Shown: piece by piece, positions 27,183 through 42,884 of the stretch
Layout: each line of letters opens with the position of its first letter
Numbering within the stretch: the first letter of the stretch is position 1
Assembly: GCF_017798205.1 (NCBI RefSeq)
Contig: NZ_CP060010.1
Coordinates: 2,666,001-2,730,000 of the forward strand
Direction of reading: 5' to 3'
DNA from: Cognatishimia activa
Lineage (GTDB): Bacteria > Pseudomonadota > Alphaproteobacteria > Rhodobacterales > Rhodobacteraceae
Length of the DNA stretch: 64,000 bases
The notes under the pieces: generated by a model
Told to the model about the DNA's origin: nothing
The model's database searches: none
What the model saw: the letters and a program-made list of their open reading frames with translations, nothing else
Made by a program: the position numbers and the translations under genes

Positions 27183-29342
27183 TCAGGCGACAGCGGCAGC
27201 AAAGCTGCTGCGGAAAGTCGCAGCCAGATCAGCCAGAGGCGCCTCGGAAGAGCCCATGCGGACCTTGTCGCCGGTGAATTTGCCGACCGATTGCAGGGTG
27301 ACACCCGCCTGGCCTGCGGCGACCATAAGCGCCTCGGCCTGATCGAAATTGCAGGCGATCAGATAGCGGGCCTGGTCTTCGCCGAAATAGGTCGCGGTGT
27401 TCGCGTCATCCAGATGGACGCCGACGCCCGCGGTTTCCGCCATTTCAAAGGCTGCCAGCGCGAGGCCACCGTCCGAGAGGTCGGTGCAGGCTTTGATCAT
27501 CTCGCGGTTGGCGCGGATGAAGTCGCCGTTTTTCTTTTCCTCGGCCAGGTCGACCGCAGGGGCGTCGCCTTCTTCGCGGTTGAAGACTTCGGCGAGCAGA
27601 GCGGATTGTCCCAGATGCCCGTTTGTTGCGCCCACGACCAAGGCCACGTGACCTTCGCGCGCTTCGCCGATGATCTCTTCTTCGTTGGCCTGAATAAGGC
27701 CAACTGCGCCGATGGTTGGGGTTGGCAGGATGCCTTTGCCGTCGGTCTCGTTGTAAAGGCTCACGTTGCCCGAGACGATTGGCATGTCGAGCGCCGCAAC
27801 GGCCTCGCCGATGCCTTTGATCGCGCCGACGAATTGTCCCATGATTTCAGGCTTTTCCGGGTTGCCGAAGTTCATATTGTCGGTGGTCGCCAGAGGGGTT
27901 GCGCCGACGGCTGTGAGGTTGCGATAGGCTTCGGCGACGGCTTGTTTGCCGCCCTCTACAGGGTTGGCTTTCACGTAGCGTGGGGTCACGTCCGAGGTGA
28001 AGGCGAGCTTCTTGTCGGTGCCATGCACACGCAACAGGCCTGAACCCACGCCCGGGCCACGCGCGGTGTCGGCCATGACCATCGAGTCATATTGATCATA
28101 GACCCACTGTTTGGCGGCATAGTTGGGGCTGGAGATCAGCGCCTTGAGACCATCAATCGGGTCAATCTCTGGCACATCGGCCAGAGGCTCTGCCGCAGGC
28201 GTCTCGACCCATGGGCGGTCGTATTCTGGTGCAGTGGAGGAGAGCTTGGACAGAGGCAGATCGGCTTTGACTTCGCCGTTGTGCATGATCAGGAAGCGGT
28301 CTTCTTCGATGGTTTCGCCGACGATGGCGAAATCGAGGTCCCATTTTTCAAAGACGGCGCGTGCCCCGGCCTCGAGCTCTGGCTTCAGAACCATCAGCAT
28401 GCGTTCTTGGGATTCCGACAGCATCATTTCGTAAGCTGTCATGTTTTCCTCGCGCTGGGGCACGTCTTCGAGGTTGAGCTTCACACCCAAGCCGCCTTTG
28501 TCGCCCATCTCGACGGCAGAGCAGGTCAGACCCGCTGCGCCCATGTCTTGGATCGAGATCACGGCGCCGGTGGCCATCAGCTCGAGCGTGGCTTCCATCA
28601 GGCGTTTCTCGGTGAAAGGGTCGCCGACCTGAACGGTGGGGCGTTTTTCCTCGATGGTGTCGTCGAATTCGGCCGACGCCATTGTCGCGCCGCCAACACC
28701 GTCGCGGCCGGTTTTCGCGCCAAGGTACACGACCGGCATGCCGACGCCAGAGGCTGCGGAGTAGAAGATTTTGTCAGCGTCCGCCAAGCCTGCCGCGAAA
28801 GCGTTCACAAGGCAGTTGCCGTTATAGGCCGGGTGGAAGCGTACTTCACCGCCCACGGTGGGAACACCGAAACAGTTGCCATAGCCGCCGACGCCTTCGA
28901 CCACGCCGTTGACGAGCTGTTTGGTTTTGGGATGCGAGGTCTCGCCAAAGGACAGAGAGTTCATCGCCGCGATTGGACGCGCGCCCATAGTAAAGACGTC
29001 GCGCAGAATGCCACCAACACCGGTCGCCGCGCCTTGGTAGGGTTCGATGTAGGAGGGGTGGTTGTGGCTTTCCATCTTAAAGATCACGGCTTGACCGTCG
29101 CCAATATCAATCACACCCGCGTTTTCGCCGGGGCCGCAGATCACCTGAGGGCCTTCGGTTGGCAGAGTGCGCAGCCATTTCTTGGAGGATTTATAAGAGC
29201 AATGCTCATTCCACATCGCCGAGAAAATGCCCATTTCGGTGAAGTTTGGTTCGCGGCCCAGAATGTTGATCACTTCGGCATATTCGTCCTTGGTGAAACC
29301 GTGGTTTGCGATGACCTCATCGGTGATGACTGGATCTTGCAT
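27183..29342 (-). CDS. purL: Phosphoribosylformylglycinamidine synthase subunit PurL
   Basis: The small-form PurL (719 residues) makes FGAM from FGAR with ATP, using ammonia from a separate PurQ/PurS. It shows [18 protein letters not shown], the ATP-binding [40 protein letters not shown], and [16 protein letters not shown]-type motifs ([20 protein letters not shown]). The glutaminase domain of the large enterobacterial form is absent, as expected. AAGGA precedes the ATG. PurQ and PurS are not in the window. Upstream lies the candidate sRNA terminator. Confidence 0.97.
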
Positions 29343-29433: not shown

Positions 29434-29464
29434 AAAAAAAAGGGCCGAGCAAACAAGCTCGGCC
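29434..29464 (-). terminator. Rho-independent terminator of the candidate sRNA (and of the LysR gene)
   Basis: GGCCGAGC (29443-29450), six-base loop, GCTCGGCC (29457-29464); the minus-strand RNA continues with C and eight U (29441-29434). Very strong form for an Hfq-type sRNA end. Confidence 0.92.
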
Positions 29465-29519
29465 TAAGTCCAACAGGGAGGTATGAAGATGATGTGCGAA
29501 TAAGCAATCATCGCCTTCG
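29434..29519 (-). ncRNA. Candidate trans-acting small RNA downstream of the LsrB-type regulator
   Basis: Read on the minus strand, about 86 nt: (1) a 5' stem-loop, GATGATTGC paired with GCA-C-ATCATC (one bulge) and a UUAUUC loop; (2) an unpaired stretch containing UACCUCCCUG, an anti-Shine-Dalgarno seed; (3) a perfect 8-bp terminator hairpin GGCCGAGC/GCTCGGCC with a six-base loop followed by C and eight U. A promoter fits exactly upstream (TTGAAA, 17 bp, TATTTC), starting transcription near 29519. The ends are inferred. In Rhizobiales the AbcR sRNAs are controlled by the LsrB/VtlR regulator; here the gene sits 85 bases after such a regulator. No protein ORF of note overlaps. Confidence 0.72.
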
Positions 29520-29525
29520 AGAGAT

Positions 29526-29554
29526 GAAATAAGCAGCAGCGTGTTAACTTTCAA
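29526..29554 (-). promoter_or_regulatory. Predicted promoter of the candidate sRNA
   Basis: On the minus strand TTGAAA (29554-29549), a 17-bp spacer, and TATTTC (29531-29526), in the space between the LysR stop and the first stem of the RNA. The -35 box is good, the -10 box moderate. Confidence 0.55.
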
Positions 29555-29604
29555 GAAAAACCATGCTGCGCCTGCAGCAAAGCTGATATGCGCCTAGTGC
29601 ATAC

Positions 29605-30510
29605 CTAGAGGTTTCCCTGTTCTTTCATGTGTTTACGGCTAAGCGCGATCTCTTCTTGTACAAAGTCACGGAAGGCTTGAATGCGCTTGGAATGCCGTAA
29701 TTCCTCTGGATAGGCCAGATAAACAGGGATTTCCTGACTTTGAACCTCGGGCAGGACCCGCACCAGATCAGGGGATTCCTCGACGATATAGTCGGGCAAA
29801 GACCCGATGCCGAGGTCATGCAAAACCGCCTGCAGAACGCCATAGTAGTTGTTCACGTTCAGGCGGGACTGAATATTGTTGGTCAAAAGCGACTGGATCA
29901 TCACCGCACCGGCCGACACCTGATCAGAACCCGGGTTCTGACAGATCAAACGATGGTCCGCCATGTCCTGTGGCGTTTCCGGCGTGCCATGGGCGTCCAG
30001 ATAGGCTTGCGTTGCATAGAGCCGCATGCTCACAAACATCAGGCGCTTGCGGATCAGGTCGGCCTGGCTGGGTTCTTTCATGCGGATTGCGCAGTCGGCC
30101 TCGCGCATGGGCAGGTCGAGCACCCGTTCCTCAAGCATCAGATCAATATTCAGATCAGGGTATTTTTCGTAGAGCTTATGCAGACGTGGCGCGAGCCACA
30201 TGGTGCCAAAGCCAAGCGTCGTGGTGACGCGCAGTTCGCCAAAAACCTCTTCTTCACTGTCGCGAATTCGGGCAGAAGCCGCATCCAGCCGTTTCGCCAT
30301 GGCTTTGGTCGCGTCAAACAGTAATTCGCCTTGTTCCGTCAGAATCAGACCCCGCGCATGGCGGTGAAAGAGAATCGTATTGAGGCTTTCTTCCAGCGCG
30401 CGCACCTGACGGCTGACCGCCGATTGAGACAAATTAAGGGTATCACCGGCATGTGTGAGGCTGCCTGCGTCTGCTACTGCGTGAAATATTCGAAGTTTGT
30501 CCCAGTCCAT
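29605..30510 (-). CDS. LysR-family regulator, LsrB/VtlR type
   Basis: 301 residues. The N-terminus MDWDKLRIFHAVADAGSLTH, then LSQSAVSRQVRALEES and LFHRHARGLILTEQGELLFD, closely matches the LsrB/VtlR group of Alphaproteobacteria; the linker GELRVTTTLGFGTMWLAPRL also fits. In Sinorhizobium, Brucella and Agrobacterium these regulators control oxidative stress, envelope functions and AbcR small RNAs. The LysR effector domain is complete. Cysteines occur in ADCAIR and LICQNP. It is divergent from the indolepyruvate oxidoreductase gene (177 bases between starts), and a likely sRNA gene follows. Confidence 0.88.
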   Translation of the reverse strand: MDWDKLRIFHAVADAGSLTHAGDTLNLSQSAVSRQVRALEESLNTILFHRHARGLILTEQGELLFDATKAMAKRLDAASARIRDSEEEVFGELRVTTTLGFGTMWLAPRLHKLYEKYPDLNIDLMLEERVLDLPMREADCAIRMKEPSQADLIRKRLMFVSMRLYATQAYLDAHGTPETPQDMADHRLICQNPGSDQVSAGAVMIQSLLTNNIQSRLNVNNYYGVLQAVLHDLGIGSLPDYIVEESPDLVRVLPEVQSQEIPVYLAYPEELRHSKRIQAFRDFVQEEIALSRKHMKEQGNL

Positions 30511-42700: not shown

Positions 42701-42884
42701 AACAGCATCCTTCAGACACGTGCGTCTCGGAACCGAGGTGGTGGTCGCCCTTGCCAACTGCACGAAAGTGAAAGTGCCGTTGTGTGTATCTCACAGGTTT
42801 AGCTTGGCCGAAAAGGCTGGCGACGCCTGGGTGAACTGCGGACCCAGCTTCAGACAATCAGAACTGCCCTTGTGCCTCAACAAA

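Follow-up and report, generated by a model that had tools for sequence, protein, structure and literature searches.

The stretch of DNA analysed here (the window; 64,000 nucleotides (nt) of Cognatishimia activa, contig NZ_CP060010.1, positions 2,666,001 to 2,730,000) carries on its minus strand, in the gap between a LysR-type regulator gene (29605-30510) and purL (27183-29342), the gene of the small RNA (sRNA) SorY. In our interpretation, to which a probability of about 0.77 was assigned, transcription of SorY would be set by the adjacent LysR protein together with an RpoH sigma factor via a predicted operator, and SorY together with Hfq would repress mRNAs of uptake systems. SorY itself is already known, as follows from a match to its Rfam family RF02651, an identical core and a shared gene order; new here are the LsrB-type operator at SorY and the class-wide arrangement of regulator and sRNA. 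The locus comprises the following elements:

29434..29520, minus strand: SorY sRNA, about 87 nt (RF02651 match, E 1.9e-12, model positions 1-83; 5' end placed by analogy to the Rhodobacter sphaeroides start site)
29485..29518, minus strand: bulged 5' hairpin of the sRNA (fold and covariation across 74 copies)
29466..29481, minus strand: single-stranded anti-Shine-Dalgarno stretch CCUCCCUGUUGGACUU (little or no variation among 74 copies; not paired in the centroid fold)
29434..29464, minus strand: intrinsic terminator with a perfect GC-rich 8-bp stem (29464-29443) and eight U (29441-29434) (terminator scan and fold)
29550..29555, minus strand: putative -35 element CTTGAA, RpoH type (sequence; Sinorhizobium meliloti RpoH1 consensus, PMC8844928)
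29527..29533, minus strand: putative -10 element CTTATTT (sequence; aligns with CCTAAAT of relatives)
29577..29602, minus strand: predicted LysR operator ATGCACTAGGCGCATATCAGCTTTGC with three half sites (conservation and match to the S. meliloti LsrB motif)
29605..30510, minus strand: LysR-type regulator, Rhodobacterales ortholog of LsrB/VtlR (Pfam HTH_1 and LysR_substrate; match to PDB 9HH1)
27183..29342, minus strand: purL, conserved downstream neighbor (Pfam AIRS, AIRS_C and FGAR-AT_linker; same order in R. sphaeroides)

Identity and conservation of the sRNA

An earlier note on this DNA had proposed an undescribed sRNA with the build of an Hfq-dependent, anti-Shine-Dalgarno regulator, consisting of a promoter, a stem-loop, a seed and a terminator. 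All of these parts were present in the sequence where it had placed them, and the build is supported by sequence, conservation and fold, Hfq binding having been published for R. sphaeroides only. The 87-nt RNA folded with -31 kcal/mol (z -5.2), which was equaled by none of 200 shuffles, with the unpaired CCUCCCUGUU stretch located between the 5' stem-loop and the terminator stem; the terminator was also recovered by the scanner.

The RNA was not new, as had been supposed. At a relaxed threshold the Rfam SorY model RF02651 matched over its full length (63 bits, E 1.9e-12, model positions 1-83). The sequence is identical to RF02651 over the 23 nt CUUCAUACCUCCCUGUUGGACUU and, after one differing base, again over GGCCGAGCUU. 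The gene order indolepyruvate ferredoxin oxidoreductase (IOR), divergent LysR, SorY and purL was the same here and in one genome of the Rhodobacteraceae set (G051). The match in G051 starts at C4:1632645, in agreement with the 1,632,642 published as the start of SorY in R. sphaeroides (PMC6238624), and G051 was therefore taken to be R. sphaeroides. Judged from match, core and gene order, the sRNA is an ortholog of R. sphaeroides SorY, so that the species is new but the sRNA is known. SorY was reportedly published for R. sphaeroides in 2015.

The sRNA is conserved far beyond chance. Its DNA was matched in 180 of 198 Rhodobacteraceae genomes by DNA search, and at 78 of the 80 named LysR loci the core CTCCCTGT followed directly on the LysR gene. 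In 74 non-redundant copies the stretch ACCUCCCUGUUGGACU was invariant or nearly so, while the sequence of the 5' hairpin varied freely. RNAalifold on a MAFFT alignment missed this variable stem; folds of single sequences supplied its structure, which was then checked by counting pairs. All 11 tested pairs showed changes on both sides, and the observed values were reached by none of 500 shuffles, although related rows can inflate such covariation. The 5' region folded better than shuffles in 74/74 copies (mean z -3.5). Conservation of stem, seed and terminator in relatives, which the earlier note had suggested as a check, was thus obtained as a (near-)invariant core and a covarying 5' stem.

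A coding function was considered because a 15-codon ATG frame spans the RNA; it was rejected, as the ATG is absent in R. sphaeroides and the length of the region varies. Among further model hits in this genome only the one corresponding to the related sRNA SorX was real, while two others were on inspection plain terminators without CCTCCC.

The LysR neighbor and its predicted operator

The LysR protein had been described as LsrB/VtlR-like, and this classification held. It matched Agrobacterium tumefaciens LsrB (PDB 9HH1) with 3.9e-75, the next LysR protein in PDB following at 6.1e-31. At a strict cut-off 110 of 190 alphaproteobacterial genomes matched the protein, nearly always with one high-scoring copy, and where paralogs appeared the score gap was usually wide. 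Sampled Rhodobacteraceae LysR proteins were 41-43% identical to 9HH1 and paralogs at most 33%. In the LysR tree the paralogs were long-branched, so that orthology is based on identities and the single-copy pattern only. By these measures the protein is the Rhodobacterales ortholog of LsrB/VtlR, and a published restriction of LsrB to Rhizobiales (PMC11975290) finds no support in the ortholog data. The trxB operon of the Rhizobiales arrangement was not found at this locus, where the IOR gene lies upstream in divergent orientation.

An element of the form ATGC-N7-GCAT-N7-(A/T)TGC was identified in the interval that separates the end of the LysR gene from the SorY promoter, approximately at positions -82 to -57 relative to the start site. 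The earlier note covered 29434 to 29554, where it had the parts right, and ended before this most telling element (29602-29577). The element contains exactly TGCA-N6-GCAT, the LsrB motif of S. meliloti, which LsrB requires at the NfeR1 promoter at approximately -72 to -57, as demonstrated by gel shift and point mutants (PMC10746234). A related box, GCAT-N3-TG-N3-T, is located at -61 to -49 of the S. meliloti abcR1 promoter (PMC8844928), and both AbcR1 and NfeR1 are activated by LsrB via the box motif in that species (PMC8844928, PMC10746234). Upstream of SorY, ATGC-N7-GCAT was exact in 57 of 74 loci, and allowing one mismatch raised the number to 73, compared with 1.2% and 5% of control windows; the complete three-part operator was exact or one off in 67/74. 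A search at three mismatches was non-specific. A description of a LysR operator for SorY was not found in the literature searched. The conservation of the operator suggests that the neighboring LysR protein controls SorY.

Five exact three-part sites were present in this genome, three of which lie inside long reading frames and probably occur by chance. A second intergenic operator with three half sites precedes a gene encoding a 106-aa DUF6280 protein (L258-L276; in this genome C1:315956-315981). Before this gene ATGC-N7-GCAT was kept in all 18 readable genomes, including this one, and was exact in 16 (control 6% exact). A second target of the LysR protein is likely to be the DUF6280 gene.

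The SorY promoter reads CTTGAA-N16-CTTATTT, which is close to the RpoH1 consensus CTTGAA-N16-CCTATAT of S. meliloti (PMC8844928). The spacing of 16 was the commonest among the 74 SorY loci. The letters given in the earlier note, TTGAAA (29554-29549), 17 nt and TATTTC (29531-29526), were read at those positions. The promoter scan recognized no sigma-70 promoter, and the RpoH type fits better. At SorY, an LsrB operator is probably joined to an RpoH-type promoter.

Alternatives to LysR control of SorY were weighed against these data. SorY might be driven by RpoH alone, with ATGC-N7-GCAT serving another regulator or the 3' end of the LysR gene. Such a reading draws on the explanation of R. sphaeroides SorY by RpoHI/RpoHII without LysR and on a weak hairpin following the LysR gene (29579-29564), but it appears unlikely, given that the element is the proven LsrB motif and recurs class-wide before SorY-like RNAs beside LsrB, and that its occurrence before the unlinked DUF6280 gene is unexpected of a LysR 3' element. 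Because of this recurrence at an unlinked promoter the operator is not regarded as a LysR terminator. Far less probable is that the hairpin downstream, as the earlier note had considered as a refuting alternative, represents only the LysR terminator and no separate RNA. One terminator downstream of LysR could indeed serve both genes; a terminator, however, needs neither the covarying 5' hairpin nor the invariant stretch between the stems, and in R. sphaeroides the RNA starts at a mapped site of its own, from its own promoter. The proposal of an undescribed sRNA family has the least chance of all: an Rfam scan at the curated gathering cut-off yielded no match at the locus, yet the proposal is refuted by the orthology to SorY.

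Several points weigh against the interpretation given at the outset, which covers both the identity of SorY and its regulation. With 63 bits, the match in this genome falls short of the 111 bits set as the SorY gathering score. Among the 198 Rhodobacteraceae genomes, which stand for 198 sampled genera, only G051 reaches this score while 185 match at E <= 1e-3, which indicates that the cut-off, not biology, conceals the family. Furthermore, three cysteines of A. tumefaciens LsrB (Cys273, Cys236, Cys244) are missing from the LysR protein, for which reason its signal may differ from that of LsrB. Cys273 is required for peroxide resistance in A. tumefaciens and matters for the redox function of its LsrB; this position is Ala both here and in R. 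sphaeroides. C144, the other conserved redox cysteine, is kept in the LysR protein of the window but is Val in R. sphaeroides. Finally, in the published work on R. sphaeroides SorY belongs to the RpoE/RpoHI/RpoHII network, and a mention of LysR was not found in the literature searched. Apart from this, the Rfam RF02651 model is too narrow, as only one of the 185 genomes with homologs passes it.

SorY and AbcR in the Alphaproteobacteria

LsrB-sRNA pairing has previously been proven only in rhizobia and relatives. In S. meliloti, AbcR1/2 are located between SMc01226 and lsrB (PMC3712013; PMC8844928), and earlier literature has remarked that the surroundings of AbcR1 are highly syntenic across Alphaproteobacteria. 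A covariance model built from Rhodobacteraceae SorY only was run on the 190 alphaproteobacterial genomes and its hits were compared with the LysR positions. Outside the Rhodobacteraceae, 32 hits in 31 genomes followed the LsrB ortholog at a distance of 120-520 nt and in the same orientation, where 0.008 were expected. The covariance search downstream of LsrB homologs that the earlier note had recommended hence yielded a SorY-like sRNA in 31 genomes beyond this family. In total 56 non-Rhodobacteraceae genomes have an LsrB ortholog and at least one hit; in those beyond the 31, the hit lies elsewhere. The LsrB-adjacent RNAs outside the Rhodobacteraceae frequently have the sequence ACGU-CUCCCA-GACGU-GAAG-CCUCCCUGUU and then a terminator, i.e. 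a CUCCCA hairpin loop (AbcR motif M1, PMC5461406) joined to the SorY-type single-stranded core. An LsrB box with at most one mismatch preceded the core in 37 of 39 LsrB-adjacent sRNA loci (control 10%). One genome contains three tandem SorY-like sRNAs downstream of the LsrB ortholog (G364:C1:3175642-3176246, L153), each preceded by a separate LsrB-type box; the boxes lie 41, 341 and 580 nt past the LysR stop.

The partnership of an LsrB/VtlR-type regulator and an sRNA in another order, as had been proposed, is backed by the conserved operator and the class-wide co-location, control by the LysR protein itself being inferred only. SorY probably belongs to a class-wide LsrB-sRNA module. No sRNA paper naming both SorY and AbcR was found in the literature searched. 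On balance we favor a wider view, held with less confidence than the regulation of SorY proposed above, in which the LsrB-type LysR protein and an adjacent anti-Shine-Dalgarno sRNA would form one ancient alphaproteobacterial module with a shared operator. SorY in Rhodobacterales, AbcR in Rhizobiales and the unnamed LsrB-adjacent sRNAs would be its lineage forms, and in SorY the LsrB and RpoH inputs, distributed over AbcR1 and AbcR2 in Sinorhizobium, would come together.

The RNA of the window shares with R. sphaeroides SorY the core, a 5' hairpin, the terminator, a promoter of its own (putative here) and the position between an LsrB-type LysR gene and purL, but differs in the sequence of the 5' hairpin and scores under the R. 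sphaeroides-centered Rfam cut-off. With AbcR1/AbcR2 (alpha-r15; Sinorhizobium, Agrobacterium, Brucella) it would share anti-Shine-Dalgarno pairing, Hfq and transporter targets, and it shares a location beside lsrB/vtlR (Sinorhizobium, Agrobacterium), an LsrB box upstream (AbcR1) and an RpoH-type promoter (AbcR2). The two inputs divided between AbcR1 and AbcR2 would be joined in the one SorY promoter. In locus terms the gene resembles AbcR, as it adjoins the LsrB/VtlR ortholog with a box upstream. AbcR RNAs, in contrast, are 114-121 nt long and carry M1 (CUCCCA) in the loop of their first hairpin, with M2 (GUUCCC) placed between the hairpins (PMC5461406); both motifs are absent from the window RNA, which has a single CCUCCCUG stretch instead. 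Because M1 and M2 are absent and common descent with the Rhizobiaceae AbcR core was not shown, the sRNA was filed as SorY and not as AbcR.

The alpha-R8 sRNAs (MmgR, SisA-D; RF00519) likewise consist of a weak 5' hairpin, a single-stranded CCUCCCU and a terminator and pair with ribosome binding sites, but their core is UUUCCUCCCU compared with AUACCUCCCU here and their usual locus is beside an N-formylglutamate amidohydrolase gene (PMC12559287). The RF00519 model gave 23.8 bits at the locus, below its gathering cut-off of 41. SorX of R. sphaeroides (RF02784) has nearly the same ACCUCCCUGUUGGAC-terminator half as SorY. A SorX ortholog was found elsewhere in this genome (L128 1491-1563, C1:1510702-1510791; RF02784, 78.6 bits), located after an OmpR-type gene as in R. 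sphaeroides and sharing ACCUCCCUGUUGGAC with SorY. By their shared half, SorX and SorY are sibling sRNAs. A further Rfam match in the window is a COG3860 cis-regulatory RNA (RF02940, 59.4 bits) at 42791-42845 on the minus strand.

Predicted targets and significance

For R. sphaeroides SorY, membership in the RpoE/RpoHI/RpoHII network, Hfq binding and regulation of takP have been published. In the mechanism proposed here, the LysR protein would bind the operator from the upstream side, at approximately -82 to -57, and together with an RpoH sigma factor would set the transcription of SorY. With Hfq, SorY would then use CCUCCCUG to pair with the ribosome binding sites of mRNAs for uptake systems, whose translation or stability it may lower, as published for SorY and takP and for S. 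meliloti AbcR1/2 and ABC transporters. Few start sites in this genome carry CAGGGAGG, among them that of a gene for a TAXI-type (NMT1_3) TRAP transporter binding protein, the mRNA of which is a possible target of SorY. TakP is also a TRAP binding protein. Over its whole length, the ribosome binding site CAGGGAGG of the TAXI-type gene (L183; in this genome C1:638644-638659; leader CAGGGAGGAAATTATG) is the complement of the SorY seed.

SorY and AbcR have so far been treated as unrelated sRNAs. If the LysR protein controls SorY, the Rhodobacter oxidative-stress sRNA would gain its missing regulator and the claim that LsrB is confined to Rhizobiales would fall, and results obtained in Brucella, Agrobacterium and Sinorhizobium would become predictions for marine and phototrophic bacteria.
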